Source of the DNA: a virus
DNA length: 25,201 nucleotides
Virus record (IMG/VR): IMGVR_UViG_3300043420_001688
Location: 1 to 25,201 of that record
Reading direction: 5' to 3' (one strand)
Of this stretch, positions 3,029 through 24,044 are shown piece after piece. Under the pieces are notes generated by a model, which was given only the letters and a program-made list of their open reading frames with translations, searched no databases and was not told the DNA's origin. Both the position numbers and the translations under genes were made by a program. Each line of letters starts with the position of its first letter. Position 1 is the stretch's first letter.

Positions 3029-3035
3029 CTAGGAT
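3029..3035 (+). promoter_or_regulatory. Predicted -10 promoter element (CTAGGAT)
   Basis: CTAGGAT lies in the 47-nt gap after the stop at 3010, with 22 nt between its end and the GTG start at 3058. It is one of eleven elements of the same form found just upstream of gene starts. No clear -35 box is visible. Confidence 0.6.
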
Positions 3036-3057
3036 GCACTGATGCCGGAGTCCACCC

Positions 3058-3363
3058 GTGGCGTTTGATCTGAACGGCAACCAGGGGAAGTTCAGAGAGG
3101 CCCGTGGGCGCGCGAATGAATTTGTGCAGAAAGGGCTGGAGAACGCTCGCATTCGGGAGCAGCGTCGCGATACCGGTGCCGGCCCACTGTTTTACGCCAC
3201 CGGTTCGCCGGATAAGACCGAATCGCAGCAGTTCTACCAGGTGGGCCTGCTCTCTCCCTTCAGCCAGGCCGTCCAGGAGAACCCGGACTACTTCGGCCTC
3301 TTCCACGACCGGTGGGACGCCTTCCTCAGCGGCCTTAACGGCGGCGGCTCTTCATCCGCCTGA
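3058..3363 (+). CDS. Small hypothetical protein, 101 aa
   Basis: Begins with GTG; GGAG at 3047-3050 lies 7 nt upstream, and a CTAGGAT promoter element lies 22 nt upstream. It is the first gene of a putative unit that continues into 3370. The protein is soluble-looking, with a charged N-terminal helix (about residues 10-40), an aromatic middle (FYQVGLLSPF, YFGLFHDRW) and a Gly/Ser tail. No family is recognised. By location it is a virion or virion-assembly protein, which is inference only. Confidence 0.75.
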   Translation: MAFDLNGNQGKFREARGRANEFVQKGLENARIREQRRDTGAGPLFYATGSPDKTESQQFYQVGLLSPFSQAVQENPDYFGLFHDRWDAFLSGLNGGGSSSA

Positions 3364-3369
3364 TTCGCC

Positions 3370-3972
3370 ATGCTTCGTTTCGCTGGACTTGCTGGACCTG
3401 CCCTGAGGGCCCTCTACCCCGCCTTGCGCCAGGGCTCCCTGCGTTCGGCGGCGACCTGGAGAAAAGCGGCTCCCGACATCGCTATGGACCTGGTGCCCAA
3501 CGCACTGTTCGCCGGCATGGCAGGTGCGGCGCTGCCCGGCGCGGACCCGGCAACGGGCTTCGAGGGGGCCACCATGGGCGAACGCTTTGGCGCGTCGTTC
3601 CTCGACGCTGCGATTTCAACTCCGATCGGCGTGGCCGGCCGCCTCGCTGGCGCCGGCGTTGCTCGCGGGCTGCGCAACATGCGCGGCGGTCGGCCGATCT
3701 CCCCCGAATGGGAGGCGGGCATCCAGGGCGTGACTGGCATGGGGGCCGAGGTGGGCCTGTTGGGCTCCGGGCTGATCCCCAATCCCTTCATGAATAGGGC
3801 TTTCGAGCGCTACAACGCGGCCTATGCCCGGGCAGAAGAAGAGAACCAGCGGGCCCTGCGCGAGCAGATCGTCGCTGAAGAGCGCGAGCGGATGATGCGC
3901 GAGCAGAGGGCCCTGGAGTACGGCGGCCTGGGTGCCGCGCTCAGTCCATTCGGCTTCGGGGGCTTCGGGTGA
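3370..3972 (+). CDS. Glycine/alanine-rich putative membrane-active protein
   Basis: 200 aa. ATG six bases after the previous stop; no clear Shine-Dalgarno, so translation is probably coupled to the gene before. Residues about 35-110 are rich in Gly and Ala with several hydrophobic segments of the glycine-zipper kind. After the motif NPF (about residue 137) comes a strongly charged helix rich in Glu and Arg (about 145-182), then a Gly/Phe tail. The same plan (hydrophobic Gly-rich part, then NPF or DPF, then charged helix) is seen in the protein at 6887-7561. Such proteins can insert in membranes or pack inside capsids; a role in the ejection apparatus is inference. Confidence 0.75.
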   Translation: MLRFAGLAGPALRALYPALRQGSLRSAATWRKAAPDIAMDLVPNALFAGMAGAALPGADPATGFEGATMGERFGASFLDAAISTPIGVAGRLAGAGVARGLRNMRGGRPISPEWEAGIQGVTGMGAEVGLLGSGLIPNPFMNRAFERYNAAYARAEEENQRALREQIVAEERERMMREQRALEYGGLGAALSPFGFGGFG

Positions 3973-5225
3973 TGGAGATGCCGAAGATCCCGCGGACAGG
4001 CATGGGCCTGCGTGATGTGTTCGCCCACGCCTGGCGCGCCAATCCTCGCGCTGGGGCGTCTCGCGATGAGGATCTCAGCCCTTTTGAGATGCTGTTTCAG
4101 CGATCTCAGGCGATCGACTACGCCCGCCAGGTGATGCCTGGCTGGATGGGCGGCTACGGCAAGCGGGGCATGGCCGACTTCGACAGTCGGCGCAGCAGCG
4201 ACGCCCGCATGCGCGAGAACACGGTGCGCGTCGGTGAATATCCCCAAGGCGTGCCGACCGACGGGGGCGTCGCGGCGGAGGCCGCCCGCCGGGCAGCCCA
4301 GGCTGCTGGCGTCGCCGCAGCTGACGCGACCAGTCAGGGAGGCCTGAACGTCTGGTGGTTCGTCAACGCCGCCCAGGCCGCAGCACAGGCCGCTGGGCAG
4401 CAGGCCATGCACGGCCGGTTGCGGGGACTGGAGGGAGCGCCGGCCGGGGCACCATTCAGCCGGCAGCACTACGCCGTGTCGGCCACGTTCCCACTGGCGC
4501 TTGGAGCCAGCGCCGCGGTCGGCAACCTGTTCCGCCAGCCCGGCTATACCGCCGTGCTGCCCAGTGAGGACGATCGCCGCGAGTCGGAGAATCCGCTGAT
4601 GGAGCAGGGCCTGCGGGCCATCGGCATGACGGGGCGCCTGCTGCCCTACGACGAGTTCGTCAAGGAGCGGCCCGACGTGTCGCGCGGTGAGTACGAGGCC
4701 TACAAGGCCTACCTCTTCGGGAGCCCGATGCCGGTGAAGTTCAACCCAGACGGCATCCACGGCGCCGAGGTGAACCTGCTGGGCAAGTCGATCCCCTTGC
4801 TGACCGGCGTGCTGCCGGTGGCCGGCGGCGTGGCTGGCGGCGCCATCGGACTGCGAATGGCGGGCAAGCGCCTGGCGGCCCGCGGCCCGGGCCCTGGCGG
4901 TACCGTGCGCTTGAACCAGTTCCAGGTGCTGGACAACCGGAGGGCACGGATCGAGAGCCTGCGGGAAAGCCTCAGGCGGGACAAGCTGGACCCCGACGAC
5001 GCCAAGGGCCTCCTTCAGGAGCTTGATGAGGCCCAGGTGGACGAACTCCGCCAGCGCAACTTCATCGAAGACCGGCTCCTGGCCGGATCTTTGCTGGGCT
5101 CCAGCGCAGGACTCGGGATCACCGGTGCCGGGGCCATGCTGCTGGAGCAGATTCGCCGGGCTGGCAACGCGGAGGAGAACCGCCGCCGGCAACAGGAGAA
5201 GATCGCAGCCGAATCGCCCGCCTAG
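3972..5225 (+). CDS. Putative internal virion protein with hydrophobic segments, 417 aa
   Basis: ATG at 3972 overlaps the previous stop (GTGATG); a GTG at 3969 and an ATG at 3978 are alternatives. The protein has an N-terminal soluble part with the hexapeptide YPQGVP (about residue 90), an Ala-rich region, and three hydrophobic Gly/Ala segments: about 175-195, about 270-295 (SIPLLTGVLPVAGG onward) and about 370-395 (LLAGSLLGSSAG onward). A charged coiled-coil-like region lies between the second and third. The hexapeptide YPQGVP recurs twice in the protein at 22402-23655. The stop codon TAG (5223-5225) is also the first half of the next promoter element. No family is recognised; a membrane-interacting virion protein is the best guess. 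Confidence 0.75.
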   Translation: MEMPKIPRTGMGLRDVFAHAWRANPRAGASRDEDLSPFEMLFQRSQAIDYARQVMPGWMGGYGKRGMADFDSRRSSDARMRENTVRVGEYPQGVPTDGGVAAEAARRAAQAAGVAAADATSQGGLNVWWFVNAAQAAAQAAGQQAMHGRLRGLEGAPAGAPFSRQHYAVSATFPLALGASAAVGNLFRQPGYTAVLPSEDDRRESENPLMEQGLRAIGMTGRLLPYDEFVKERPDVSRGEYEAYKAYLFGSPMPVKFNPDGIHGAEVNLLGKSIPLLTGVLPVAGGVAGGAIGLRMAGKRLAARGPGPGGTVRLNQFQVLDNRRARIESLRESLRRDKLDPDDAKGLLQELDEAQVDELRQRNFIEDRLLAGSLLGSSAGLGITGAGAMLLEQIRRAGNAEENRRRQQEKIAAESPA

Positions 5226-5228
5226 AAT
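5222..5228 (+). promoter_or_regulatory. Predicted -10 promoter element (CTAGAAT)
   Basis: GCCTAGAATCG, with 24 nt to the TTG start at 5253. The same 11-mer occurs at 6855-6865, also 24 nt from its start codon. The TAG at 5223-5225 is at the same time the stop codon of the upstream gene. Confidence 0.65.
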
Positions 5229-5252
5229 CGCAGGAGCGCTTGCCACAGCATT

Positions 5253-5726
5253 TTGGCCGCCACGTGGACCTATTCCAACATCTACGGGGGGCCGGGCCCT
5301 GAAACCACGCTGCCGCTGCCTGAGTACGCCAGGTCGGACGACGACGACGAAAGCGATAGCCAACGGTTCACGCCGCAGCCCCCGACGCCGCGCGCCCCGC
5401 GGGGAGCTGATAGCGACCGTTTTCGCGATGCCTACACCAAGGAATTGAGCACGCAGGCCAGGCTGATCCAAGACGTGCTCGCAGCTGACGCCCAGAGGAC
5501 GAGTGCTCGCCATGGCGCGCCGCTGTCGCAGCCGCAGGGCCAGAGCGGCTGGGGTGCGAATCTGGCGCGGAGCCTGGCACCAGCGGTTGGACAGCTCGCC
5601 ACTGGACTGGTGCAGCAATTCCTCCCCGGCGGCTCCACGACCGCCAGCCAGATCGGCAAGACGGCGTTTGCGCCGGGATGGCAGACCTCGGCGTCCAATG
5701 CCTGGCGCGCCGGATTTGGAGTTTGA
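5253..5726 (+). CDS. Hypothetical protein with TTG start, 157 aa
   Basis: TTG is chosen because the promoter element lies 24 nt upstream, as for other genes here. The protein contains no internal methionine at all, so no ATG start is possible. An acidic run (DDDDESD, about residues 29-35) is followed by a Pro-rich linker, a charged helix and a C-terminal half with hydrophobic Gly/Ala/Leu stretches. No Cys. ATT at 5250 would be another possible start codon. No family is recognised. It belongs to the run of virion-type genes and shares a unit with 5730 and 6017. Confidence 0.7.
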   Translation: MAATWTYSNIYGGPGPETTLPLPEYARSDDDDESDSQRFTPQPPTPRAPRGADSDRFRDAYTKELSTQARLIQDVLAADAQRTSARHGAPLSQPQGQSGWGANLARSLAPAVGQLATGLVQQFLPGGSTTASQIGKTAFAPGWQTSASNAWRAGFGV

Positions 5727-5729
5727 GCC

Positions 5730-6017
5730 ATGTTCAATCCCTTCGACAGCCCGTCCGGCGAGATTTTCCAGCAGCGGCGTTTCACCGACGCAATCAACGA
5801 CCAGCGCAGCGCTGAGACCGATGTGATGGGGTCGGCGATTCAGCAGGGGGGCTATGTCAGCGCCGCCAAGCGAGCCCGGAAGTACGCCAAGAAGCAGCGC
5901 CAGAAGGCCGCAGCCAGCGCCGCCAGCGGACCCAGCACCGGAGCGCAGATTGCTATGGGGCTGGGCAGTGTTGCTGTCGGCGCCGGCGTCAAAGCCGGTG
6001 TTACCGCCTTGCTCTGA
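5730..6017 (+). CDS. Small basic protein with C-terminal hydrophobic segment
   Basis: 95 aa, ATG three bases after the previous stop. It begins MFNPFDSP, has a Lys/Arg-rich helix in the middle (about residues 47-62, KRARKYAKKQRQK) and ends with a Gly/Ala/Val segment (about 72-95) long enough to span or insert in a membrane. A basic helix plus a hydrophobic tail would fit a DNA- or lipid-binding virion protein. No family is recognised. The stop overlaps the next start as TGATG. Confidence 0.7.
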   Translation: MFNPFDSPSGEIFQQRRFTDAINDQRSAETDVMGSAIQQGGYVSAAKRARKYAKKQRQKAAASAASGPSTGAQIAMGLGSVAVGAGVKAGVTALL

Positions 6018-6859
6018 TGAGGCAGTCCCTGAGCGCAGACAAGATCGACGCCACGCGGCGGCTGATCGATGTGGCGCACGCGCGCTACCCATCGAGCGCC
6101 ATCTGCTGGTCTGGCGGCAAGGATTCGATGGTGCTGCTGCATCTGCTGCATGAGCAGGGCGTTGATCGGCCGGTGATCTTCTTCCGCGAGCCCTGGCAGC
6201 CGCGCAAGTACGCCTTCCACGATCGACTCATTCGGGACTGGGAGCTGCAGGTGATCTCGTGGCACCCCAGCGGCGTGGCCTTCCAGCAGCGCGGCGACGA
6301 GTTCGAGCTTCAGAACCTCTACACCCTCGGCGATCGGCCGATCACCTGCCCCACCGGGATCATTCCTCCGCAGGATGGGCTGTCCTGGGCCTGTGCTCTC
6401 GACATGGCCAAGCGGCCAACCCAGGAGAGCCTCGATGTGTTCCCGCCGATCGAAGCCCTGTGGATCGGCCACAAGGGCTGCGACGAGGATGTCGTCCTCG
6501 GCGGCCCGGCCGGCACGCGCGTCGACGCCAAGGTGTCCCTCGGCTGCCAGGTCAGCCTGTTTCCGCTGCGGGACTGGAGCCACGGCGACATCTGGGACTA
6601 CATCGAGATTTTCGATGTGCCATACGATCGGGAGCGCTACGTCCATCGCGGCGAGCGGGCGGAGCGGGAGTGCAACGCCGACTACGTGCACGCCTGCACC
6701 CGCTGCATCGACAGCAGGCCCGACGCGCCTCGCTTCGTGTCCTGCCCGAAGCTCGATGGCGCCATGGTTGAGAACGTCTCTTCCACCCTGCCGTGGATCG
6801 AGCCACGCCTGCCGTCTTACATGCAAGACGCGGAAGAAGCCCCCGCTGGCGCTGCCTAG
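6017..6859 (+). CDS. PAPS reductase / adenine nucleotide alpha-hydrolase family protein
   Basis: 280 aa. The start overlaps the previous stop by one base. The PP-loop SGGKDS is at residues 32-37, following a short strand (SAICW), as in PAPS reductases and related ATP pyrophosphatases. Residues 219-243 hold four cysteines spaced C-x7-C-x2-C-x12-C, which could bind zinc or an iron-sulfur cluster. The C-terminal ECGLH motif of true PAPS reductases is absent, so sulfate reduction is doubtful. Family members in phages and in DndC-type DNA modification activate or transfer groups with ATP; the substrate here is unknown. The gene lies between structural-type genes and its TAG stop doubles as part of the next promoter. 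Family assignment is firm, function is not. Confidence 0.85.
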   Translation: MRQSLSADKIDATRRLIDVAHARYPSSAICWSGGKDSMVLLHLLHEQGVDRPVIFFREPWQPRKYAFHDRLIRDWELQVISWHPSGVAFQQRGDEFELQNLYTLGDRPITCPTGIIPPQDGLSWACALDMAKRPTQESLDVFPPIEALWIGHKGCDEDVVLGGPAGTRVDAKVSLGCQVSLFPLRDWSHGDIWDYIEIFDVPYDRERYVHRGERAERECNADYVHACTRCIDSRPDAPRFVSCPKLDGAMVENVSSTLPWIEPRLPSYMQDAEEAPAGAA

Positions 6860-6862
6860 AAT
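6856..6862 (+). promoter_or_regulatory. Predicted -10 promoter element (CTAGAAT)
   Basis: GCCTAGAATCG, with 24 nt to the ATG at 6887. TAG at 6857-6859 is also the stop codon of the PAPS-reductase-like gene. Sequence and spacing match the element at 5222 exactly. Confidence 0.65.
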
Positions 6863-6886
6863 CGCTGCATCGCAGCACGGCACCGG

Positions 6887-7561
6887 ATGGCCGCACCTCT
6901 TCTATTGGCCGGGGGCCGAGCCTTCCTCCAGCGATTGGTAAGCGGCCCCCTGGCCGGAACCATTGCATTCGCGCCGACGGTCATCCAGGCGGCCGGTGAG
7001 CTCAACAGCGCCGATGGTGACCCTGACGGCGATCTGGCCGGCTTTGTGGGCTCACTGGCCCTGGGCGCCCCAGGGTTGGCGGCGGGCGGACTGGTTGGCC
7101 GGGCGTTGAGCGGGCGCGCGGTGCGAGGTGCCGCCAAGCTGGGCGGCAGGACCCTGGCCGGGACTTCACCGACCCTGAGGCGCGCGAAGCAGATCGGCGG
7201 GCTGACAGGCGGGGCGCTGGGCGCCATGGGCCTGGCCGGTATTGGCGCTGGACTGGGGCGCGCCGTGGCGGGACTGGGCAGCGATCCCTTTGACGAGCAG
7301 ATCAAGCGGCAGGCACGCATGTTCGACCTCGAAACCGAGCTGCAGATCAAGCGGGCTGAGGCGATGCTGCCGGTGCAGCGCCTGCAGATGCAGGCCGCCA
7401 GGGAGCACGCAAAGGAGCAGGCCATGCTGGACAGCGAGCTGCGCGGCCTGGAGATGTACCGGCAGGCCCTGCTGGGCGCCGCTCAGCCGATGCCTGGGGC
7501 CTACAGCGATCCCAGCTTCAATCAGATGCTGGCGGGCGTCGTGCAGGGGGCGATGAGCTGA
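6887..7561 (+). CDS. Glycine-zipper protein with C-terminal charged helix
   Basis: 224 aa, first gene after a CTAGAAT element. Residues 1-140 alternate small residues (Gly, Ala) and aliphatics, with likely membrane-inserting segments around 8-32, 48-70 and 105-130. After DPF (about residue 144) a long amphipathic helix follows (about 148-195, rich in Glu, Gln, Arg, Leu). The plan parallels the protein at 3370-3972. The stop TGA overlaps the next ATG. No database family is recognised; a membrane-penetrating or internal virion protein is inferred. Confidence 0.75.
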   Translation: MAAPLLLAGGRAFLQRLVSGPLAGTIAFAPTVIQAAGELNSADGDPDGDLAGFVGSLALGAPGLAAGGLVGRALSGRAVRGAAKLGGRTLAGTSPTLRRAKQIGGLTGGALGAMGLAGIGAGLGRAVAGLGSDPFDEQIKRQARMFDLETELQIKRAEAMLPVQRLQMQAAREHAKEQAMLDSELRGLEMYRQALLGAAQPMPGAYSDPSFNQMLAGVVQGAMS

Positions 7562-8025
7562 TGGCGATCTACGATCCAGGCGCTGGCGCGTTTGCGCAGC
7601 TGATGGCCCAGGCGCCGCAGTTTCAGGCGGGCCCAGGCACCTTCACGCAGGCGGCCATCCAGAACGCGGCGAACCGGCTAAGCATTGCTGGCGACAGCAT
7701 GGAGGCCGCCGCCCTGATCAAAAGCGAGCGCATTCGCCGCAAGCAGGCCCGGATCCTGCGGCGTCCTCAGCAGACCACTACCGGCGACCGGCTGCGGAGT
7801 CTCCTCGCATCAGGAGCCCTGACCCCGGGTGCGACTGGCGCGGCGGCTGGCGGCGGTGGTGGTGGCGGCTCTCGCACGGAAAGCCCTCTCAGCCCCCTGC
7901 AGCTGCTCAGGCTGAACAACCAGACGATGGACGAGCTGCTGTACCTGCGCGCCCATGCCCAGAAGCTGACGAGCGGCAGCGGAAACCTGACTGCGGGGGC
8001 GATCGGCGATGCCATGGGCGGCTGA
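7561..8025 (+). CDS. Hypothetical protein with polyglycine linker
   Basis: 154 aa. ATG overlaps the previous stop by one base. An N-terminal Ala/Gln-rich helical part carries a basic patch (IRRKQARILRRPQQ, about residues 59-72), followed by a run of eight consecutive Gly (about 97-104) and a helical C-terminus. The Gly run looks like a flexible linker between two small domains. Function unknown; position suggests a virion protein co-translated with 6887. Confidence 0.7.
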   Translation: MAIYDPGAGAFAQLMAQAPQFQAGPGTFTQAAIQNAANRLSIAGDSMEAAALIKSERIRRKQARILRRPQQTTTGDRLRSLLASGALTPGATGAAAGGGGGGGSRTESPLSPLQLLRLNNQTMDELLYLRAHAQKLTSGSGNLTAGAIGDAMGG

Positions 8026-8044
8026 GGCCTCTCGGGAGTGCCCG

Positions 8045-8051
8045 CTAGAGT
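8045..8051 (+). promoter_or_regulatory. Predicted -10 promoter element (CTAGAGT)
   Basis: CTAGAGT, a one-base variant of CTAGAAT, in the 65-nt gap before the GTG at 8091; 39 nt separate it from the start. The longer leader holds a good Shine-Dalgarno sequence (8075-8081). The perfect palindrome GTGATCAC (8050-8057) overlaps its 3' end. Confidence 0.5.
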
Positions 8052-8074
8052 GATCACAGTGACCGCTGCGCACC

Positions 8075-8741: not shown

Positions 8742-9683
8742 ATGGCCAAGAAAAAGAAGAGCCAGAGCAACGCCCAGAGCAACGCCAAGCTGGTAGTCCA
8801 GGCATTCCTGGGCAAGAGCGGCAATAATAACAATAACAAGAGCGGCAATAAAAACAATAACAATAGCGGCAATAATAACAATAACAAGAGCGGCAATAAT
8901 AACAATAACAATGGCGGCAATAATAACAAGGGCAAGAACAATGCTCCCGCCCCAGCCCGCGCGGCTGCTCCCGCCCCAGCCCGCGCGGCTGCTCCCGCCC
9001 CAGCCCGCGCGGCTGCTCCCGCCCCAGCCCGCGCGGCTTCTTCTGCTGCGACCAGCTCCCCTTACCGGGCGCCCGCCAGCAATCCGGTGAATCAGTGGGC
9101 TGCTGGTAATTCCCAGAACAACCTCGTGGCCGGTGCTGCCAACGACCTCTTCTACAACGCTGCCAGCGCCGACCTGCAGACCAGGAGCGACGTCAATTAC
9201 GCCATGCAGATGGCGCCCCTGTCGCTTGAGTACCAGCAGGGGGCCCAGTCGATCATGACCGATGCCTTGCTGAAGCTGAAGGCAGCCGACGCTGCCATCG
9301 CCCGGGACCTGACCGAGCAGACTGGCCAGATCAACACCGGCATCGAGTCGATCCGAGCCGACACACTGAAGTACGGCGCGGATCGCCAGCTGGATAGCAC
9401 GCGCCTCAACCAGCAGCAGGAGACGGAGCGCAGCCGCTACACCGCGGACAGCCTCGAACGCACTTCGCGCTTTGGACAGGAGCAGGAGACACAGCGCAGC
9501 CGCTACACCGCGGACAGCAATCGGGTTATCGGCCAGGACCGCAACCAGAGCGAAGAACGCCAGATCGGCCTGAAGGGGGCCGAGGAGCGCCGCACCTTGC
9601 AACAGGGCACCGACGAAACCCTGCGGCTGCGGGCGGATGCACGCGGCGCGATTCGCAGGGCCGGCGCGCGCTTCTATGGCTGA
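8742..9683 (+). CDS. Asn-rich and Ala/Pro-rich repeat protein
   Basis: 313 aa; AAGGA shortly before the ATG. A short Lys-rich N-terminus is followed by five units of the type SGNNNNNK (residues 26-65) and then four perfect units APAPARAA (68-99). The rest is helical, Gln/Arg/Glu-rich, and holds a doubled segment ending QRSRYTADS or ERSRYTADS around residues 225-260. The Asn-rich part resembles prion-like low-complexity sequence and forms an AT-rich pocket in a GC-rich genome. The last eight bases overlap the next gene. Function unknown; probably an extended or flexible virion component. Confidence 0.75.
   Translation: MAKKKKSQSNAQSNAKLVVQAFLGKSGNNNNNKSGNKNNNNSGNNNNNKSGNNNNNNGGNNNKGKNNAPAPARAAAPAPARAAAPAPARAAAPAPARAASSAATSSPYRAPASNPVNQWAAGNSQNNLVAGAANDLFYNAASADLQTRSDVNYAMQMAPLSLEYQQGAQSIMTDALLKLKAADAAIARDLTEQTGQINTGIESIRADTLKYGADRQLDSTRLNQQQETERSRYTADSLERTSRFGQEQETQRSRYTADSNRVIGQDRNQSEERQIGLKGAEERRTLQQGTDETLRLRADARGAIRRAGARFYG
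8817..8936 (+). repeat. AT-rich 24-bp tandem repeat, five units
   Basis: Five in-frame 24-bp units of the type AGCGGCAATAATAACAATAAC + AA(G/T), the last one degenerate. They encode SGNNNNNK-like octapeptides. The array uses AAT and AAC codons in a genome that otherwise prefers G or C at third positions. Confidence 0.9.
8943..9038 (+). repeat. GC-rich 24-bp tandem repeat, four identical units
   Basis: Four identical 24-bp units encoding APAPARAA, starting six bases after the AT-rich array ends and with the same 24-bp period. Identity at the DNA level points to recent expansion. Confidence 0.93.
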
Positions 9684-10162: not shown

Positions 10163-10169
10163 CTACATT
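10163..10169 (+). promoter_or_regulatory. Possible -10 promoter element (CTACATT)
   Basis: CTACATT fits the CTA(G/C)NNT pattern and lies in the 18-nt gap before the terminase ATG at 10177, with 7 nt between. Transcription would begin about at the ATG, giving a leaderless mRNA, unless the true start is the ATG at 10216. This is the weakest match of the plus-strand set. Confidence 0.35.
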
Positions 10170-11720: not shown

Positions 11721-11727
11721 CTAGGAT
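11721..11727 (+). promoter_or_regulatory. Predicted -10 promoter element (CTAGGAT)
   Basis: CTAGGAT in the 27-nt gap before the portal ATG, with only 6 nt to the start. A promoter here would make a leaderless portal transcript. The AGGA inside it is 7 nt before the ATG and could instead act as a Shine-Dalgarno sequence on a longer message. Confidence 0.5.
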
Positions 11728-11733: not shown

Positions 11734-13980
11734 ATGAGCGATCAAAGCGACAGCTCCTTCCAGCAGATCCTCGAGGCGGCGCGCAGTCGCAAGGGGACGG
11801 GAGGTGGCGACACCACCATCATCACGGGCCATTTGGCCCAGATGCGCCTGTTCATGATGCGGCAGGGGGTGGAGTTCTATCCCCGGCAGGACAGCTACGG
11901 CTTTCGCAAGCAGTTCATCACCCGGGTCGTCGAGGAGAACGAGGTCGACGCGCGCCTGGAGGGCGTGGCCGACAATTTCGTGATCGATGGCAAGGGCCTC
12001 TGGTTCTTCCGGCCGGTGCGCGACACCTACCGGATCATGTGGTTCAACAAGGACAGCTATCGCGCCTATCGCGACTCCTACGAAGAGCTCGAAGAAGTGG
12101 ACCTGATCTACTCCTACAGGGAGCGGGCCCGCGGCAACCTGGCGCTTGCCCCAGCAAGCGGCGGCTTCACCGAGAAGTGGGTGCGCCTGGTGGTGCGCCG
12201 CGACATCATCATCGAGACGATCAGCGACGACAAGCCGTCGTTCGATGATTCGACCCAGGGCCTGCTGTATCTGCCTCCCGGCGTCCGCAATGCCCAGGCC
12301 GGCCGGATGGGGCGTGGCGGCAGGGAGACCCGCAACTCGCTGGGATTCATCCCGGCGGTCGAGGCGTTCAACAACATGCTCGCCTCGGGCATGGATGCCA
12401 CCGGGGACTTTGCCGGGCTGGAAGGGCACATCCTGGTGCACGACGCCCTGGTGCGGAACATCCGCGAGAACATCCGCTTCTACGGCAATCCCACCCTGGT
12501 GTCGAGTCGCCCTCGCCACGACATGGTGGAGTCCGGCGACAGCCAGGCGCGCCGGCCGACGATCGCCAGCCGCTCCGACTTCTCCTCGCGGGGCCTTGCG
12601 CCGTCGTGGAGCAACCAGGGCGGCGGGCGGTTCGACCTGACGGGGGCCCCGTCGCTGACCAGCAATGTGCGGGTTCCGCGGCTGATCGCCAATATCGAGC
12701 CGACGGACCGGGTTCAGTACATCACGCCCAACGCCGTCAGCGGCGACCAGAACCTCTACGCCAGGCAGTACCGCGAGGAGATCCGCACGGCCCTGGGCGG
12801 CATTGACGAGCTGGGCATCAGCAGCGGCGCAACCGCCTACGAAATTCGCAGTCTTTTTGGCCGTGCCGCTACAACGGCTGCTCGTAAATGCCGAGGGCTG
12901 CTGACCTACGGGCTTTGCAAGTTGCTGGCCTTGATGGTTCACCACGAGGAGCGGATCTTCCGGGAATCCTTCTCGGCGGTCACCAAGCTGAACCCGCCGG
13001 AAGCACCTCTGCGCGAGCAGTTCGAGGGCGACACGGCCGAGGAGGATTACAGGAAGGCTGAGCAGGCCTATCGCGACGCCTACGCCGCCTACGAGCAGAA
13101 GCTGGAGCAGCGGATCACTCAGGCCATCGAAAGCCAGGAGATCCCTCCCGGGGTGATGGGACTGATCCCCGACGGCGACTCCCGTGTCGAGTGGCGCTGG
13201 CGCGGCCCGGTGTTCGAGGAAAGCCCGGAAGACATCCTCAACGCCTCGATCGTGGTGCGCAACCTGCAGGAGCTTGGGGTCAATTCGATCGAAGCCCTCA
13301 AGCACCTGTTCCCGTCGAAGACTGACGAGGAGCGCAGCGCTATGCTTTCAGGGTATCCGTTCAGGATGGCCCAGGCCACCCAGCAGAGCATTGGAACCTT
13401 CCTCTCGCTCATCGGGACCATGCAGCAGGTGCCTCACCCGCAGCGCCCCGATCTCCCTCTGCTGGCCGACGCTCGACTCGACCTGGTTCCGTTCCTCTAC
13501 AGAGCCTTCGATTTTCTCAAACGCGAGCTGACCTATGCAGGACAATTCAGCGATGCCGCAGGCGCCTCAGGCCCCGCAGAGCTTGAGCCCCTCGAGCGCG
13601 CCCGCGCCAACGCCGGCCTCCCCGCCGAGCTACCAGGCTCCGACGCCCCCATCTTCTTACCCGACAGCGCCCAGCCCGGTGGCGGATCCGTGGCAGGCGT
13701 CGTACCAGCGGCTGAGCGAAGGTTTGAACGGGATGCCCCCATCCCCGCCCCCGGCTCAGCCCTGGCCCGCAGCGCCACCGGCAATGGCCTACCCGGCAGC
13801 TTACCCTTCGGCTCCGGCAGTCTCCCCGGCCGCGTTCAGTTCGGCGATGCCGACTTCGCTGCCCCTAGCAATGCCGGCGTCTTTGCCGACCTTTCCCAGC
13901 GTGCAGCCGAGCGTGCAGCCGCAAGCCGCGGAGCCCGCGGCCGACGGGTTCCTGGGCGCCGTCAGCGACGAAAGTCTTGA
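11734..13980 (+). CDS. Portal protein with long overprinted C-terminal tail
   Basis: 748 aa. The portal forms the ring at the capsid vertex through which DNA passes and to which terminase docks. Evidence is the place directly after terL and the size; the segment from LGFIPAVEAFNN to RFYGNPTLVSS (about residues 205-255) looks like the portal stem/clip part, and helical wing regions follow. About the first 600 residues look like an ordinary folded protein. The last ~148 are Pro/Gly/Ala-rich, end in a very basic stretch (RGARGRRVPGRRQRRKS), and are encoded in DNA that also carries the N-terminal part of the next gene in another frame. Whether this tail is made in full needs testing. Confidence 0.8.
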   Translation: MSDQSDSSFQQILEAARSRKGTGGGDTTIITGHLAQMRLFMMRQGVEFYPRQDSYGFRKQFITRVVEENEVDARLEGVADNFVIDGKGLWFFRPVRDTYRIMWFNKDSYRAYRDSYEELEEVDLIYSYRERARGNLALAPASGGFTEKWVRLVVRRDIIIETISDDKPSFDDSTQGLLYLPPGVRNAQAGRMGRGGRETRNSLGFIPAVEAFNNMLASGMDATGDFAGLEGHILVHDALVRNIRENIRFYGNPTLVSSRPRHDMVESGDSQARRPTIASRSDFSSRGLAPSWSNQGGGRFDLTGAPSLTSNVRVPRLIANIEPTDRVQYITPNAVSGDQNLYARQYREEIRTALGGIDELGISSGATAYEIRSLFGRAATTAARKCRGLLTYGLCKLLALMVHHEERIFRESFSAVTKLNPPEAPLREQFEGDTAEEDYRKAEQAYRDAYAAYEQKLEQRITQAIESQEIPPGVMGLIPDGDSRVEWRWRGPVFEESPEDILNASIVVRNLQELGVNSIEALKHLFPSKTDEERSAMLSGYPFRMAQATQQSIGTFLSLIGTMQQVPHPQRPDLPLLADARLDLVPFLYRAFDFLKRELTYAGQFSDAAGASGPAELEPLERARANAGLPAELPGSDAPIFLPDSAQPGGGSVAGVVPAAERRFERDAPIPAPGSALARSATGNGLPGSLPFGSGSLPGRVQFGDADFAAPSNAGVFADLSQRAAERAAASRGARGRRVPGRRQRRKS

Positions 13981-14926: not shown

Positions 14927-14933
14927 CTAGCAT
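14927..14933 (+). promoter_or_regulatory. Predicted -10 promoter element (CTAGCAT)
   Basis: CTAGCAT after the hairpin at 14852-14894, with 22 nt to the ATG at 14956. It would start the message carrying the small gene and the endolysin. Confidence 0.55.
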
Positions 14934-16930: not shown

Positions 16931-16967
16931 GGCGTCGATGCAGTGGGACCATTCTGGCGGGGCCGCA

Positions 16968-18057: not shown

Positions 18058-18064
18058 ATTCTAG
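18058..18064 (-). promoter_or_regulatory. Predicted -10 promoter element on minus strand (CTAGAAT)
   Basis: The minus strand reads TCCTAGAATCC, with 21 nt to the GTG start at 18036. It has the same sequence and spacing as the plus-strand elements but is oriented with the leftward genes, which argues strongly that the motif is a directional promoter element. Confidence 0.65.
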
Positions 18065-18209: not shown

Positions 18210-18218
18210 GAGACAAGG

Positions 18219-18818
18219 CTAGCGGCAGCGCATGAGGTGTCTGCCATGCAGGGAGCCGCTGCGCAGGGCATGGGCCATCGAGCGATGCACATGGGGCCGC
18301 AGCCGCTGCACCAACTGCGCCATCGACTGGCGCGCCAGGCGCAGGGTGCGGGCATCGCCGCCCTGCTGCACCTCCTCGATGCCGAGCTTGCCCAGGTGGG
18401 CGGCCAGGGCGGCGGCATCGGCTTCGCTGGGCAGGGCGATGACAGCGGTGCCCCGGTCCCAGCGGCCGTGGAATAACCAGATATTGGCCAATCCGCGATC
18501 GCCGGCAATATCAAGCACCTGGGGCGTCAGCAGCGCCTGCTCGCCGGGGACGAGGAGCTCCAGGGCCCGCTCAAAGCCGTCGTGCTGCAACCGGGCGCGG
18601 CTGACGTCGTAGTAGAGCTTGCCGGGCACCTGATCGATGACGGTGCGCACCGGACCGGCGCCGGCTTGCTGCAGTGAGCGCACCTGATGCAGCAGGTAGG
18701 TGTGCTCCACCTCTGAGCGGCGTAGCTCCAGCCACGGCCGCTGGCGGGTGCCCTTGCGGCGAAGCACGCCGCCACCGAGGGCGTACCCCAGGGCCAGGCC
18801 GACCAGCTTGGCGGTCAC
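18219..18818 (-). CDS. Hypothetical protein with N-terminal hydrophobic segment
   Basis: 199 aa from the GTG complement at 18816-18818, which overlaps the stop of the LAGLIDADG-like gene as GTGA; GAGG lies five bases upstream. The open frame extends to 18947 but would run inside that gene. Residues 4-21 (KLVGLALGYALGGGVL) form a short Gly-rich hydrophobic helix, then a basic region. The remainder is a soluble alpha/beta-looking domain with IWLFHGRWDRGTAVIAL (about 129-145) and a helical, His/Arg-rich end. No family is recognised. Overlap with the gene upstream suggests the two act or are expressed together. Confidence 0.65.
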   Translation of the reverse strand: MTAKLVGLALGYALGGGVLRRKGTRQRPWLELRRSEVEHTYLLHQVRSLQQAGAGPVRTVIDQVPGKLYYDVSRARLQHDGFERALELLVPGEQALLTPQVLDIAGDRGLANIWLFHGRWDRGTAVIALPSEADAAALAAHLGKLGIEEVQQGGDARTLRLARQSMAQLVQRLRPHVHRSMAHALRSGSLHGRHLMRCR

Positions 18819-19456: not shown

Positions 19457-19469
19457 TTCACCCAAAGCG

Positions 19470-19477
19470 ACCTCCTT
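19470..19477 (-). promoter_or_regulatory. Strong ribosome binding site on minus strand (AAGGAGGT)
   Basis: The minus strand reads AAGGAGGT, 13 nt before the ATG complement at 19456 and 4 nt before an in-frame TTG. It shows that translation begins here and not at the distant ATG at 19513. Confidence 0.7.
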
Positions 19478-19507
19478 ACTGTAAGAGGTAGCAAGCGGTC
19501 TGCTTGC
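19475..19507. promoter_or_regulatory. Inverted repeats in divergent control region
   Basis: The 83-nt region between the leftward LAGLIDADG-like gene and the rightward capsid gene holds the palindrome CTTACTGTAAG (19475-19485) and the inverted repeat GCAAGC-GGTCT-GCTTGC (19491-19507). They could be operators or an RNA hairpin in the capsid leader. No good CTAGRAT element is present here, so the capsid gene may use a different promoter class. Confidence 0.5.
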
Positions 19508-19539
19508 CAGCAAACCCTTTCATTCGGAGCGTTTCACCC

Positions 19540-20679
19540 ATGTGGGTTGAAAATGATTTCCCGAAGATTCTGGGCGCCGAGCTCTATCGGCCTCACCCTG
19601 CGTACGTCGTCGAGATGGCCGTGGACCCCGTCGTGGTCCACGATTTCGGAGCCCAACCCGGGCAAACCGTTGCCCTCGACCGGTATCGCTATTGGGGCAA
19701 CCCCGGGACCAAAGACTCCCGGGAGCGCACGGCGGATCAGACTCTCGGCACGGCGTCCTCTCGCAACATTGTGAAGGACAAGGTCAATGTGACCTTGAAG
19801 GAATACACCGGCCCCGCCGATTCCAGCGACCCCACCCAGCCGAGCACCTTCAAGGTGGCTCGCGAGACGCTGATTACCTCTCAGCGCCTGCTGCTGGATA
19901 CCCGCAATCTGCCGGCTTTCCACCAGTCGATCGGCAGCATGACGCTGCTTGACGATTATCGCCGCTGGCGCGATCGCGTCTTTGCGGACGAGCTCTTCAA
20001 GGCGGAAGCCAACGGCAAGGCCGACAGCACCCGCGGCGGCTATTTCTTCCCCAAGGGCAAGACTCGCACCGGCACCACGGTCGAGGCCTACGGCGCCAAC
20101 CAGTCCGCCAAGTTCGGCGTCAAGGATGACCTCCTCGATGTGGTCACCGAGATGCGCAAGCGGAACGTGCCGACCTTCGCGGACGGCTACTACCGCTGCA
20201 TCGTCGATCCCACGGCGATGAAGCACCTGCGCCAGGACAGCGACTTCCGCGAAGTGGCTCGTTACACCGGCCAGGGCATGGTGGACCCCATGCAACCCCA
20301 TCTGGCGCCCAACGCCAGCTTCTACCTGGGCATGGGCCCCGCCTATGGCCAGGCCGGCTTCGTGGCCGGTCAACCAGTCATGCCGACGGGCTTCCTGTTC
20401 GAGGGCGTGCGCTGGTTCGAGTCGACCAACCTGCCCGACAAGAGTTTCACCGCCACCATCCCTGTTGCCAGCATCAGCGCTGCCGTCACCACGGCTGCTC
20501 CGATCCTGTTCTTCGGGATGCAGGCCGTGGGCGTCGGCATCGGTGGTGACAATGCCCAGATCCTGTTGAACAACAACGACGATTTCGGGCGTTACATCAT
20601 CATGGTGTGGTCGCTGATGGCCGGTTTTGAGGTCCTGAACAAGGACTTCATCACGGTTGCCTACTCGTTCGTTTACTGA
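19540..20679 (+). CDS. Major capsid protein (N4-gp56-like)
   Basis: 379 aa from ATG 19540, with GGAG at 19526-19529; the TTG at 19504 would add 12 residues without a Shine-Dalgarno. Forms the icosahedral shell. The order of features fits the N4-gp56 family of HK97-fold coat proteins: an N-terminal segment ending DFGAQPGQTVALDRYRYWG (around residues 33-51), the strand-rich IVKDKVNVTLKEYTGP (around 79-94), a central helix-rich A-domain, VPTFADGYYRCIVDPTAMKHLR (around 210-231) and a C-terminal Gly/Phe-rich segment. Length is typical. The scaffold-like gene lies 5 kb upstream, with endolysin and a leftward block between, an unusual separation. Family call is from memory of the pattern. Confidence 0.75.
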   Translation: MWVENDFPKILGAELYRPHPAYVVEMAVDPVVVHDFGAQPGQTVALDRYRYWGNPGTKDSRERTADQTLGTASSRNIVKDKVNVTLKEYTGPADSSDPTQPSTFKVARETLITSQRLLLDTRNLPAFHQSIGSMTLLDDYRRWRDRVFADELFKAEANGKADSTRGGYFFPKGKTRTGTTVEAYGANQSAKFGVKDDLLDVVTEMRKRNVPTFADGYYRCIVDPTAMKHLRQDSDFREVARYTGQGMVDPMQPHLAPNASFYLGMGPAYGQAGFVAGQPVMPTGFLFEGVRWFESTNLPDKSFTATIPVASISAAVTTAAPILFFGMQAVGVGIGGDNAQILLNNNDDFGRYIIMVWSLMAGFEVLNKDFITVAYSFVY

Positions 20680-20691
20680 TCGGAGGTAGCC

Positions 20692-21339
20692 ATGACCAAA
20701 AAGATCTATCCCGGCAACTACGTCAACCCCCTGAGCGCTTACCAGAGCCAGGGCATTGTGGGTGTCCCCGGCCGGCTGTTTGTCCACAAGGTGGGCTACA
20801 TCAAGGTTGACTCCACTCCTCGCACCGAGTTCAACGTCATCATCCCCAGCCCCGACAAGCGGCCGGATGACAAGCCCCGGCCGGACATCACCGGCCTGGT
20901 GGTGCCCAACGGCGCCCATGTGTACTTCCTGGGTCTGCGGATCCTCGATGCACGCAAGGATCCCGGCATTGGCACCGCCCGCTCCGGGCTGATCTGGGGC
21001 AATGGCACTGACCGGATCAAACTGGCCAGTGCCGTGAGTGTCAACGGTGCGGCGATCACCGCCACCACGTTGAGCACCACCCCGATCAACGATGCCAGCC
21101 TCACCGCTGATCCCCAGAGCTCGGTGTTCAGCGTCATCACTCCGGTAAAAGCCACCGCCGAGATGACCCTGAAGCTCTACTACGACAACGGCAGCACCGC
21201 TGCTGGCAACGCCGCAGGTCTGACCTCGGCCGAGCCTGGCGGCAGCTACCTGACGGCAGAGGTGGCCTACTTCATCGACGACGAGGCTTCCGATGCCTCC
21301 GCGTTCGGCGGCCTGCCTGCCGTGGTGGAGACCGTCTGA
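20692..21339 (+). CDS. Probable capsid decoration or head-stabilising protein
   Basis: 215 aa; the ATG is 12 nt after the capsid stop, with GGAGG five bases upstream, so it is probably expressed at high level with the capsid. The protein is beta-rich, with many Thr, Val and Gly residues, no hydrophobic helix and no Cys. The call rests on its place directly after the major capsid gene and on composition; no motif is recognised. A hairpin and a promoter follow, so capsid and this gene form one short unit. Confidence 0.6.
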   Translation: MTKKIYPGNYVNPLSAYQSQGIVGVPGRLFVHKVGYIKVDSTPRTEFNVIIPSPDKRPDDKPRPDITGLVVPNGAHVYFLGLRILDARKDPGIGTARSGLIWGNGTDRIKLASAVSVNGAAITATTLSTTPINDASLTADPQSSVFSVITPVKATAEMTLKLYYDNGSTAAGNAAGLTSAEPGGSYLTAEVAYFIDDEASDASAFGGLPAVVETV

Positions 21340-21348
21340 GGGTGACTT

Positions 21349-21382
21349 CGGAGCGGGGTGCCTGCAAGGGCCCTCCGCTCCG
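21349..21382 (+). terminator. Terminator-like hairpin after the capsid unit
   Basis: Perfect 8-bp inverted repeat CGGAGCGG / CCGCTCCG (21349-21356 and 21375-21382), starting nine bases after the stop at 21339 and ending six bases before the next promoter element. No long T-run follows. With the similar hairpin at 14852 it shows a repeated order: stop, hairpin, CTAG element, next gene. Confidence 0.6.
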
Positions 21383-21387
21383 TCTCC

Positions 21388-21394
21388 CTAGGAT
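21388..21394 (+). promoter_or_regulatory. Predicted -10 promoter element (CTAGGAT)
   Basis: CTAGGAT directly behind the hairpin at 21349-21382, with 41 nt to the ATG at 21436. The leader is longer than for most units. Confidence 0.55.
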
Positions 21395-21435
21395 GGCTCC
21401 ACGTCCTCCTGCAGCTCCTCTGACGGGGCAGGCGC

Positions 21436-21873
21436 ATGACCCTTTATCAGAATCGCAGAAACGGGCAGATCGTGGAGCTGATCAGCTATCACGACGCCGA
21501 CTACGCCATGGTCAAGAACCAGAGCGGCGCGATCTCCTATCCATTGCGGCGCGACCTGGAGGAATATCAGCCCGGCCACGGCCGCACGGGCGTCACCTTG
21601 GCCTCTGCGGCTGACGGCAGCGGCGACAACAGCGAAGGCGATGCGCCTCCGGCGCCGACCATTCCCGCCGACACCCGCCTGAATGTGAACACGGCGACCG
21701 CTGAGGCGATCGCGGCTGCCATCAAGGGCGTCGGCTATTCCACGGCCAAGAAGATCGTCGAGCTGCGCATGAGCCTGCCCGGCGAGAAGTTCATCAACCT
21801 CGAGCAGCTCAAGCAGGTCGGCCGCGTCGACTGGGAGCAGGTGCTCGCTGAGGATCTGATCTACGTGGCCTGA
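21436..21873 (+). CDS. Helix-hairpin-helix protein of the head/neck module
   Basis: 145 aa. Residues 1-45 look like a small beta barrel (QIVELISYHDADYAMVKN and so on), followed by an acidic Gly/Ser linker (about 53-72). Residues 80-145 match ComEA-type tandem helix-hairpin-helix: RLNVNTATAEAI, then IKGVGYSTAKKIVELR, then NLEQLKQVGRVDWEQV. This fold binds double-stranded DNA without sequence preference through the GVG-type hairpins. In a phage structural cluster it may hold the DNA end at the portal or act in head completion, which is inference. DNA binding is likely; the exact role is open. Confidence 0.75.
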   Translation: MTLYQNRRNGQIVELISYHDADYAMVKNQSGAISYPLRRDLEEYQPGHGRTGVTLASAADGSGDNSEGDAPPAPTIPADTRLNVNTATAEAIAAAIKGVGYSTAKKIVELRMSLPGEKFINLEQLKQVGRVDWEQVLAEDLIYVA

Positions 21874-21877
21874 GTTC

Positions 21878-21884
21878 CTAGAAT
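21878..21884 (+). promoter_or_regulatory. Predicted -10 promoter element (CTAGAAT)
   Basis: TCCTAGAATCG starting five bases after the stop at 21873, with 27 nt to the GTG at 21912. Its core equals that of the elements at 5222 and 6856. Confidence 0.65.
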
Positions 21885-21911
21885 CGGTCGAGGCCAGCCA
21901 GGCGCGACTGC

Positions 21912-22397
21912 GTGGAACTCAATCCGTACGACAAGTCGCGCTGCCGCTTCCACCTGGGCTTCAACCTGGGCGCGCAGGTCCCGGCCGGCGATTCCGCTCG
22001 CCTGGAAGAGGCGATGGCGCGCATCCCTGACAGCTACTTCTACGGCCGCGTGCTGGAGCATCTGGACCGGTGCGACCGGACCTGGAAAGCGTCGGAGATC
22101 CTGCGCGATGAAACCCAGCCGATGCCCAGTCGCATCGAGCGGATCACCGGCGACACCGACCGGGCGATCTACCAGTCGGACCCCCTGAAGTCCGACCAGA
22201 TGTACCGGGAGCTCTACCTGCGGGAGGTGGATCGCCTGGCCGAAACGCTTTACGTCCCCAACTACCGGCGGGAGGACGTTCGCCGCTATGCGTTTGCGCG
22301 CAGCGGCGCTGAGTTCATCATGGCGGTTCCTGGCCCAGCCGATACGGCTGTCGGGACGCGCGTGGCGACTTTGACCGGCTCATTCAACTGGAGGTAG
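21912..22397 (+). CDS. Putative head-tail connector protein
   Basis: 161 aa; GTG start 27 nt after a promoter element, with no clear Shine-Dalgarno. Mostly helical and charged (LEEAMARIPDSYFYGRVLEHLDRCDRTW about residues 30-58; REDVRRYAFARSGAEFIMAVPG about 125-146), with a beta-type C-terminal end. Size, helix content and place after capsid and neck-type genes fit a head-completion or adaptor protein that plugs onto the portal. No family motif is recognised, so this is a positional call. Confidence 0.5.
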   Translation: MELNPYDKSRCRFHLGFNLGAQVPAGDSARLEEAMARIPDSYFYGRVLEHLDRCDRTWKASEILRDETQPMPSRIERITGDTDRAIYQSDPLKSDQMYRELYLREVDRLAETLYVPNYRREDVRRYAFARSGAEFIMAVPGPADTAVGTRVATLTGSFNWR

Positions 22398-22401
22398 GAC
22401 C

Positions 22402-23655
22402 ATGCCAGCGCCCTGGGATCCATTGGGCTGGGCCCGGCAGATGTTGCAGGGGACGGGCTACGTCCAGCCCCGTATCCCAGGCATCCCTGGCCCAACAGCT
22501 GCCGAGCGCATTCGCAGCACGGCCGGAAGGGCTGCTTCCGCCATCCAAAGGGCCGTGCCGGCCGCGCAGCGTGCCGTTCGGGGCGCCCTGACGAGACCCG
22601 CAGCCACTCAACTGCGCATCCCCGGGCTGCGCGTGCCCGGCGGCGGCGCCCCCGCTGCCGCCTTGTTCATGCTGCCGCAAGCCGCGCATGGCGCCTACCG
22701 CGGCGCCCAGGGGCTCTACGAGGGGGCGGAAGGCCTGGTGCGGGGACGCCCCCTGCGCGAGACCAGTCGGCGCATGGCGACTCCGGGCTACCAGTCCGCA
22801 GGCGGTGGCGCTTCTTCGCTGCCGTCCAATGCTCGGGTGCTCTCCCAGTACCCCCAGGGCGTGCCGGGCGCCGGCGGCTCTTCTTCGCTGCCGTCCAGCG
22901 CCAGCGTGCCTTCCCAGTACCCGCAGGGCGTGCCGACAGGAGCCGCCATGGCAACTCCTGTTGTCCCTGGTCGCGGCACGGTGCCGGTCAGTGCTCCCGG
23001 CACTCCGGCCCGCGAGCGTGCCTACCGCTTGGCAGTGCAGCAGGGCGGCGCTGCTGCATCACCGGCGCCGACACTGCCAGCCGCCAGGGCGGCGCAGGCG
23101 GCAGCCCCGGCTGCCAGCGGGGCGGCGCCGGCAGGGAGGCCGGGCTGGACGCCTGAGCAGATCGCGGCCGCAGAGGCCCGTGCCGCCGGCAAGGCGAGCC
23201 GGGATCCCCGCAGCCCCGACTACTGGGCGCAGGCCGACATTGCCGCCTGGGCCGCCGCCAACGATACGCTGGCCAAGGATCTCAAGCGCAGGGTCGGCTA
23301 CCAGGAGCCCTCCCCCGGCGGCACCTACGTCGACGCTTCCGCCCTCCCGAAGGACCTGCCGGCCATGGCCCAGGCTCCGATCCAGTGGCAACCGGTGGGA
23401 CCGGAGCAGACCTCTCCGTCGTTCACCACCCAGGGCGTGGAGCTGCCGGCCTACGCGCCTGGTGACCTGCTGGATCCATCTCGCAGGCCTCCCGCGGGAT
23501 CGATGACCAGCCAGCCCATTCAGTGGCAGGCGCCGACGCCCGAGCAGATGTCTCCGTCGTTCACCACCCAGGGCGAGGGGCTGCCGCCCTATTCAGCCAG
23601 CGACCTGCTGCGGCGCCGCGGCGTGCGCAACAGTGAGATGTACCCCATCCTGTGA
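22402..23655 (+). CDS. Ala/Pro-rich virion protein with two repeat families
   Basis: 417 aa; GGAGG seven bases before the ATG. An N-terminal basic helical part (about residues 30-75) is followed by a short Gly/Ala hydrophobic stretch, then low-complexity Ala/Pro/Ser sequence. Two copies of a 22-23-residue unit end in SQYPQGVP (about 136-181). The C-terminal part has two copies of a 32-residue unit beginning PIQWQ, containing PSFTTQG and ending with DLL (23377-23472 and 23515-23610). The hexapeptide YPQGVP also occurs in the protein at 3972-5225. It looks like an extended virion protein with docking motifs; function unknown. Confidence 0.75.
   Translation: MPAPWDPLGWARQMLQGTGYVQPRIPGIPGPTAAERIRSTAGRAASAIQRAVPAAQRAVRGALTRPAATQLRIPGLRVPGGGAPAAALFMLPQAAHGAYRGAQGLYEGAEGLVRGRPLRETSRRMATPGYQSAGGGASSLPSNARVLSQYPQGVPGAGGSSSLPSSASVPSQYPQGVPTGAAMATPVVPGRGTVPVSAPGTPARERAYRLAVQQGGAAASPAPTLPAARAAQAAAPAASGAAPAGRPGWTPEQIAAAEARAAGKASRDPRSPDYWAQADIAAWAAANDTLAKDLKRRVGYQEPSPGGTYVDASALPKDLPAMAQAPIQWQPVGPEQTSPSFTTQGVELPAYAPGDLLDPSRRPPAGSMTSQPIQWQAPTPEQMSPSFTTQGEGLPPYSASDLLRRRGVRNSEMYPIL
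23377..23472 (+). repeat. 96-bp coding repeat, copy 1
   Basis: Encodes PIQWQPVGPEQTSPSFTTQG and on to PAYAPGDLL. The second copy is at 23515-23610, 138 bp downstream from start to start. Confidence 0.85.
23515..23610 (+). repeat. 96-bp coding repeat, copy 2
   Basis: Encodes PIQWQAPTPEQMSPSFTTQG and on to PPYSASDLL, near the C-terminus. It has the same length as copy 1, and PIQWQ, SPSFTTQG, LP-Y and DLL are conserved. Confidence 0.85.
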
Positions 23656-23657
23656 CC

Positions 23658-24044
23658 ATGAACCTGGCTGAACTCTCCAGCGGTCATCCCGACCCTCGCG
23701 CCCGCCGTGATCCGCGCTTCCAGCGCAACAACACGCTGAACACCCAGATGCTGCCTCCGGCGGCCGTGCGCTACGGCACGATCTACGGCGACGGCGCGGT
23801 GCTGCACCAGTTGCCGGGCGTGCAGTTCACCGATGCGCGGGCAACGCCGGACCCCAACCCGGCTGCCCTGACGCCGCAGCAGAGCCAGGCCGGCGACTTC
23901 TTGGCGCAGTTCACCACCCAGCTGCCGATGAGCCAGAGCCAGGTCGCCAAGGGTGATCACCAGGCGGCGATGCGCCGCGGCATGTTCACCAGCCTGAGCG
24001 GATCGAGGGCTCAGAAAGGTGGCTATCCGCCCCGTCTAGCATGA
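23658..24044 (+). CDS. Hypothetical protein, possible virion component
   Basis: 128 aa from ATG 23658, two bases after the previous stop; the GTG at 23652 would overlap that stop. Few hydrophobic residues, rich in Pro, Gln and Arg, with a basic N-terminus (HPDPRARRDPRFQRNN) and FTTQLPMSQSQVAKG near residue 88. No family is recognised. Its final codons and stop overlap the promoter element at 24036-24042. Confidence 0.65.
   Translation: MNLAELSSGHPDPRARRDPRFQRNNTLNTQMLPPAAVRYGTIYGDGAVLHQLPGVQFTDARATPDPNPAALTPQQSQAGDFLAQFTTQLPMSQSQVAKGDHQAAMRRGMFTSLSGSRAQKGGYPPRLA
24036..24042 (+). promoter_or_regulatory. Predicted -10 promoter element (CTAGCAT)
   Basis: CTAGCAT overlaps the last codons of the gene before (its TGA begins at the final T) and lies 29 nt before the GTG at 24072. 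Confidence 0.5.

Follow-up and report, generated by a model that had tools for sequence, protein, structure and literature searches.

The window analysed here is the whole of IMG/VR record IMGVR_UViG_3300043420_001688, a 25,201-base virus fragment of 66.5% GC, and the elements in question are seven-base words such as CTAGGAT and CTAGAAT that stand before its genes. On sequence grounds these words are strongly supported as promoters with TANNNT as the −10 core. A comparison with 50,697 phage records gave no close match to the window. Its terminase shares 53.5% identity with that of Synechococcus phage S-EIV1 (KJ410740), and 31 IMG/VR contigs, several of them 66–88 kb, carry a closer relative (63–79% identity). 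The terminase, the portal and the order of the virion genes all have counterparts in S-EIV1; the portal was named by position, its S-EIV1 counterpart (57537–59840) adjoining the terminase, and not by family search. The window contains virion genes, while the replication genes of the relatives fall outside the window region. This gene content identifies the window as the virion-gene part of an S-EIV1-like cyanophage, an uncultured freshwater virus. An NblA-like phycobilisome degradation protein in the relative G002 (L042–L044, alignment A2; Pfam E 5e-7) suggests a cyanobacterial, phycobilisome-bearing host, and the host genomes used for comparison are Cyanobium-like, with 62–69% GC. A 42-residue open reading frame (ORF), L043:2988–3116, is 83–97% identical in four relatives and may be the NblA-like protein of G002.

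The original prediction listed eleven such words as the promoter set of the phage, and all eleven are present at their coordinates and strands. The window was scanned with a profile trained on the relatives only, the window itself being excluded, at a score cut-off of 4.5. The best seven matches are all previously listed sites, and ten of the eleven lie within the best 11. The one that drops out is CTACATT at 10163, which falls below the cut-off, has C at +1 and is not conserved before the orthologous terminase genes. Its place is taken by CCAGAAT at 16951–16957 on the minus strand, before a gene and kept in relatives. The list had overlooked this site, as well as a conserved TTACTGT at 19476 before a capsid-like gene. 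It had also held that no other CTAG word has T in the right place before a gene on its strand; the minus-strand CTAGCCT at 18222 does have T in that position. The features are as follows, with start points and leaders as predicted from the spacing described below; L and G numbers denote sequences used in the comparison.

3029–3035, plus strand: −10 element CTAGGAT, profile score 13.1 (best in the window); start at A 3042, 16-nt leader to GTG 3058
5222–5228, plus strand: −10 element CTAGAAT, profile match; start at A 5235, 18 nt to TTG 5253
6856–6862, plus strand: −10 element CTAGAAT, profile match; start at A 6869, 18-nt leader to ATG 6887
8045–8051, plus strand: −10 element CTAGAGT, profile score 7.0; start at A 8058, 33-nt leader to GTG 8091
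10163–10169, plus strand: CTACATT ahead of the terminase gene; its membership is not supported
11721–11727, plus strand: −10 element CTAGGAT of the portal gene; start at the A of ATG 11734 (leaderless)
11734–13980, plus strand: portal protein gene, predicted leaderless mRNA; 41% identity to the S-EIV1 gene
14927–14933, plus strand: −10 element CTAGCAT, profile match; start at G 14940, 16-nt leader to ATG 14956
16951–16957, minus strand: additional −10 element CCAGAAT, profile score 8.7; start at A 16944, 14-nt leader to ATG 16930
18058–18064, minus strand: −10 element CTAGAAT, profile match; start at A 18051, 15-nt leader to GTG 18036
18216–18222, minus strand: tentative further element CTAGCCT, profile score 5.9; counterpart CTAGCAT in L016
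19476–19482, plus strand: tentative promoter TTACTGT of the capsid-like gene; conserved in relatives, no A at +6
21388–21394, plus strand: −10 element CTAGGAT, profile match; start at A 21401, 35-nt leader to ATG 21436
21878–21884, plus strand: −10 element CTAGAAT, profile match; start at A 21891, 21-nt leader to GTG 21912
24036–24042, plus strand: −10 element CTAGCAT, profile match; start at G 24049, 23-nt leader to GTG 24072

CTAG is rare in the window, with 14 occurrences against 45.6 ± 6.2 expected from 100 dinucleotide shuffles, every one of which held at least 14. The host avoids it too (119 seen and 458 expected in 380 kb of Cyanobium). Where the word does occur in the form CTAG[ACG][AG]T, on either strand of the window, it ends at most 50 nt 5′ of a start codon on the same strand in ten cases out of ten. 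This upstream zone makes up 2.9% of strand positions (binomial p = 4e-16), and the elements thus precede start codons and point with their genes, as had been proposed. The distance to the start is 21–29 nt at seven of them (22, 24, 24, 22, 27, 29 and 21 nt), not at eight, and 39, 41 and 6 nt at the rest. The looser form CTAGNAT occurs seven times in sense and never in antisense within 80 nt upstream of the called window genes, and is absent from 19.5 kb of gene interior. Equal frequency inside genes in random orientation, the outcome named beforehand as counting against a promoter set, was therefore not seen. Sense to antisense counts upstream of genes were 9:0, 8:1, 6:1, 6:0 and 9:1 in five larger relatives, with almost none within genes. 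A null model from reversed sequence was dropped because reversal turns GATC into CTAG, and the placement and strand controls were used instead.

An unguided motif search from arbitrary seeds, run on 357 regions upstream of genes in the window and three relatives, returned c(c/g)CTAG(a/c/g)AT as the top motif. Two further relatives searched singly gave the same motif core. In G006 and G008, two relatives of low GC, the search gave no clear −10, and the case there rests on orthologous sites. We then aligned 79 late-module sites on CTAG(A/C/G)AT or NTAGACT, without using any downstream A in choosing them. C occupies −13 in 86% of these sites. The alignment brings out a signal that the original list did not note: the seventh base after the hexamer, with six bases between, is A in 77% (1.15 bits), and its neighbours are near background; if the hexamer T sits at −7, this A is +1. 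Among the non-orthologous sites of single genomes, A stands at the predicted +1 in 8 of 10 in the window (p = 2e-5; the other two have G), and in 6/9, 6/8, 6/7, 5/8 and 4/4 elsewhere. A −10 hexamer of TANNNT type is thus present at the right distance from the start, in the form CTAGVRT with A at +6 nt.

Orthologous sites exchange TAGGAT for TACAAT, TAACAT or TAAAAT as GC content changes, while place and spacing are kept. This is how a sigma70 −10 box behaves, and it speaks against CTAG as such being what defines the site. The TGn-CANAAT form found in relatives at the 16930 minus-strand gene is likewise sigma70-like. No classical two-box (−35/−10) promoter was found in 20 kb, and positions −36 to −31 of the aligned sites hold at most 0.2 bit, in agreement with the claim that no shared −35 is visible. 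The suggestion of extended −10 promoters did not stand: TG at −15/−14 occurs in 0 of the 79 CTAG or TAGACT sites. The promoter reading, with TANNNT as the −10 core preceded by C, is drawn from the A at fixed spacing, the unguided recovery in relatives, the orthologous conservation with GC drift and the failure of the attempt at refutation.

Leaders predicted for the ten elements are 16, 18, 18, 33, 0, 16, 35, 21, 23 and 15 nt, the last for the minus-strand element at 18058. For comparison, the medians of leader length in Prochlorococcus are 27 and 29 nt (PMC6091082). The leader of zero belongs to the portal gene, whose mRNA is predicted to start on its own ATG. The arrangement TANNNT-N6-ATG is found at this gene in 16 of 18 distinct relatives spanning 41–67% GC, and its letters are CTAGGAT at high, CTAACAT at middle and ATAAAAT or CTAAAAT at low GC. 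Leaderless transcripts are known from relatives of the host, with 19 in S. elongatus UTEX 2973 (PMC6091082).

Other elements are also found at the same place in relatives. The counterpart of the 3029 element in L005 reads CTAGACT. A CTAGAAT at a gene end, as at 5222, is also present in L005 and L027, and L005 has the equivalent of the 6856 site. At the place of 14927, CTAGCAT is found in L005, L012–L015, L023 and L027, and TTAGCAT in L026. The minus-strand element at 16951 takes the forms TGCCAGAAT, TGCCACAAT and TGCCATAAT in relatives and CCTAGAAT in L034, and TGn-CANAAT, the form seen in relatives before this gene, is a true extended −10. At the 19476 place, relatives carry CTATAGT or CTAGCGT with a TTT..CCC block upstream. 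The 21388 element appears as CTAGGAT or TTAGGAT at high GC and as CCCTACAAT at lower GC. The 21878 element is at the same place in L013, L015, G004 and G006, and reads CTAGACT in G001. The 24036 element, which sits within the end of gene 23652–24044, reads CTAGACT in G004 and TTAGCAT in G001. Overlap with a preceding gene also occurs for the genes at 3969–5225 and 6017–6859, whose TAG stops share bases with the next −10 element, as likewise in L005, L023 and L027. The second of these plus-strand genes, in the virion module, is PAPS-reductase-like by eye (SGGKDS motif) and 57–60% identical in relatives. Gene 8742–9683, plus strand and in the same module, encodes long, Asn-rich KSGNNNN repeats, with APAPARAA repeats coming after them.

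The motif is not spread over the whole phage. Before operon-leading genes (gap of at least 45 nt) in the five larger relatives, CTAGVAT occurs at 17 of 65 in the virion module and at 1 of 176 elsewhere, although the gene calls miss small early genes, so that the 176 include genes inside operons. Before all genes the counts are 31/172 and 6/365. Early operons may simply need few promoters, a caveat on this contrast. The non-virion module holds ThyX, single-stranded DNA-binding protein (SSB), exonuclease and primase/helicase genes. This restriction makes CTAGVAT a virion-gene set; the label of a promoter set is thus upheld and its extension to the whole phage is not. The virion-module motif is, we infer, the late set. 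No conserved promoter class was found before replication genes, where the commonest feature is a terminator-like T run. An element, AGCAGTGCACA or CTGCACG, recurs before replication-module genes in G001–G004 and G007 (in G002 near 37.7 and 48.6 kb); GTGCAC is enriched there, and the element is possibly regulatory or translational. Separately, a small HNH gene of the replication module (L043:2304–2630 and upstream) has a leader, CTCGTTAGCCTGGGCTGGCGCCTGACAACCAGCGAGAC, that is near-identical in G002, G003 and G007; this leader is conserved above most of its surroundings and includes a TAGCCT word.

Taken together, the elements probably serve an S-EIV1-like cyanophage as the −10 boxes of its late promoters, those of the virion genes, and are read by the host polymerase with a sigma70-class factor. 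The minimal promoter would consist of C at −13, TAG(A/C/G)(A/C)T from −12 to −7, six further bases and A at +1, without −35 or TGn. Host RNA polymerase would open the DNA at TANNNT and start at the A, giving most virion genes a short leader of 15–35 nt and the portal mRNA its start on the initiation codon. In E. coli, C at −13 without a −35 is favoured by the RpoS type of sigma. In Synechocystis, SigA requires a −35 in vitro and SigD does not (PMC2758279). For these two reasons the reader may be a group-2 sigma of the host, or else SigA assisted by a phage protein that stands in for the −35 contact; the choice between the two is a guess. A broader claim is more tentative and, to us, just short of evenly balanced: that uniform −10-only virion promoters (C at −13, TAGVMT, A at +1), a redirected host enzyme and a leaderless portal mRNA mark the whole lineage, which would lack a recognisable phage sigma and whose replication genes, like unrelated phages of the same hosts, would not use this promoter class.

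Several observations weigh against these readings. Intergenic DNA between tandem genes of Cyanobium has TANNNT 30 times in sense and 7 in antisense, which in itself favours a host reader, but its words are TAGGGT, TAGGCT and TAGGTT, and this TAGG(C/G/T)T type differs from the phage set at position 5. Over 27 kb of DNA upstream of host genes, not one CTAGNAT was seen. The phage set is therefore not a simple copy of common host promoters. A weak TTGACA-like excess lies about 17 nt upstream of the hexamer, with at least four matches at 17 of the 79 sites and about 9 elsewhere. Two unrelated high-GC Synechococcus phages make no use of CTAGVAT, but have sigma genes of their own. No function is known for about 87% of the phage families, which leaves room for a phage factor that went unrecognised. 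The term 'late' is also drawn from gene content and not from timing. Other host data were neutral: the signal for a +1 preference was too weak to read, the Cyanobium psbA upstream regions did not align on a clear −10, and the CCTAGAATCG pattern had no match in six host genomes, and neither had its control.

Within the host-polymerase reading, it is possible but doubtful that SigA holoenzyme acts with an early phage co-activator that takes the part of the −35 contact, much as T4 AsiA/MotA or phi29 p4 do, so that ordinary SigA −10 elements fire late. The restriction to one module, the missing −35 and the host-like TANNNT class speak for this, but the 79 aligned sites have no conserved upstream box besides the −10. 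One possible candidate is a small helix-turn-helix (HTH)-like protein, L194:1501–2142 (G002 64616–65260, minus strand; phrog_4779, E 4e-4), which is kept in at least five relatives and may be a switch protein; S-EIV1 and G008 yielded no match to it. Upstream of its gene lies a conserved TGGTACAAT of genuine extended −10 form. The protein could not be tied to the promoters as their regulator, and its predicted fold is useless (pLDDT 41). Two other candidates fared no better in this respect, L197:2501–3199, methyltransferase-like by eye, and L219:2001–2390, with the look of an excisionase-type HTH.

That the phage hijacks a host stress sigma of group 2 (SigB/SigC/SigD/SigE type) for its late genes is somewhat unlikely. 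Such sigmas do read −10-only promoters in cyanobacteria, and a −10-only psbA template can be used by SigD but not by SigA (PMC2758279). At one virion gene, however, the conserved TGn-CANAAT promoter suits SigA just as well. The frequent C at −13 together with the missing TGn also resembles the RpoS preference.

A divergent phage-encoded sigma working by the logic of the T4 late system, as a gp55 analogue, is improbable. T4 late promoters are likewise −10-only and late (PMC2988020), the rigid +1 would suit such a factor, many early proteins belong to no known family, and the unrelated Synechococcus phages S-CBS1, S-CBS2 and S-CBS3 (L215, L216 and L217) are annotated with RNA polymerase sigma factors. 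Against this, a seven-member gp55 profile in its most sensitive mode matched none of 6,566 ORFs in nine relative genomes. Searches for sigma region 2 (Sigma70_r2) and region 4 (Sigma70_r4) gave nothing above cut-off, the latter finding the S-CBS1 sigma as positive control, and the hexamer drifts with GC as host −10 boxes do. A T7-type single-subunit RNA polymerase had no match in the relatives, in a search run without a positive control.

Finally, a non-promoter site (a translation signal, an RNA processing site, a restriction or methylation site, or a composition effect of CTAG avoidance) is very improbable: avoidance in both phage and host does make the few remaining sites conspicuous, but it leaves their placement, their orientation, the T at −7 and the A at +6 unexplained, and the TAACAT, TAAAAT and TACAAT variants lose CTAG yet keep place and spacing.

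The literature searched seems to contain no description of promoters from this cyanophage lineage, which is both freshwater and marine. The set makes testable how early and late transcription are separated in a cyanophage with no recognised sigma or RNA polymerase, a question shared with Ma-LMM01 (PMC5780444). It yields predictions at single-base resolution, namely that transcription begins on the A lying 13 nt past the C and that the portal mRNA is leaderless. It also offers compact −10-only promoters for high-GC cyanobacteria.

Among known systems, E. coli RpoS-type promoters have the same C at −13 and little need of a −35, but their consensus CTAYACT has Y at −10, where the phage elements have G. 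S-EIV1, the cultured relative, has 46% GC, avoids CTAG less strongly than the window phage and lacks TANNNT-N6-ATG at its portal gene, while it shares the gene order around terminase and portal, and the words enriched upstream of its genes include TAGAAT and TATAAT. T4 late promoters, served by gp55, gp33 and the gp45 clamp (PMC2988020), also drive late genes by −10-only recognition about one helical turn before the start. Their 8-bp TATA box (TATAAATA-like) differs from the consensus CTAG(A/C/G)(A/C)T, and the nine relative genomes yielded no gp55 relative, the window itself being a fragment. The Microcystis phage Ma-LMM01 is likewise a cyanophage without known sigma or gp55, for which SigA-like late promoters have been proposed (PMC5780444); its WTNNANN16-22TATTMT, from four promoters, has other letters and a weak upstream element. 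Cyanobacterial type 2 promoters, which have the −10 hexamer alone (for example those of Synechocystis psbD, sigB and lrtA; PMC2758279), show the architecture proposed here but differ from the phage set, which serves virion genes, has C at −13, G at −10 and a fixed A at +1, and shows no known activator site. With them it shares a TANNNT −10, the absence of a −35 and a cyanobacterial host lineage.

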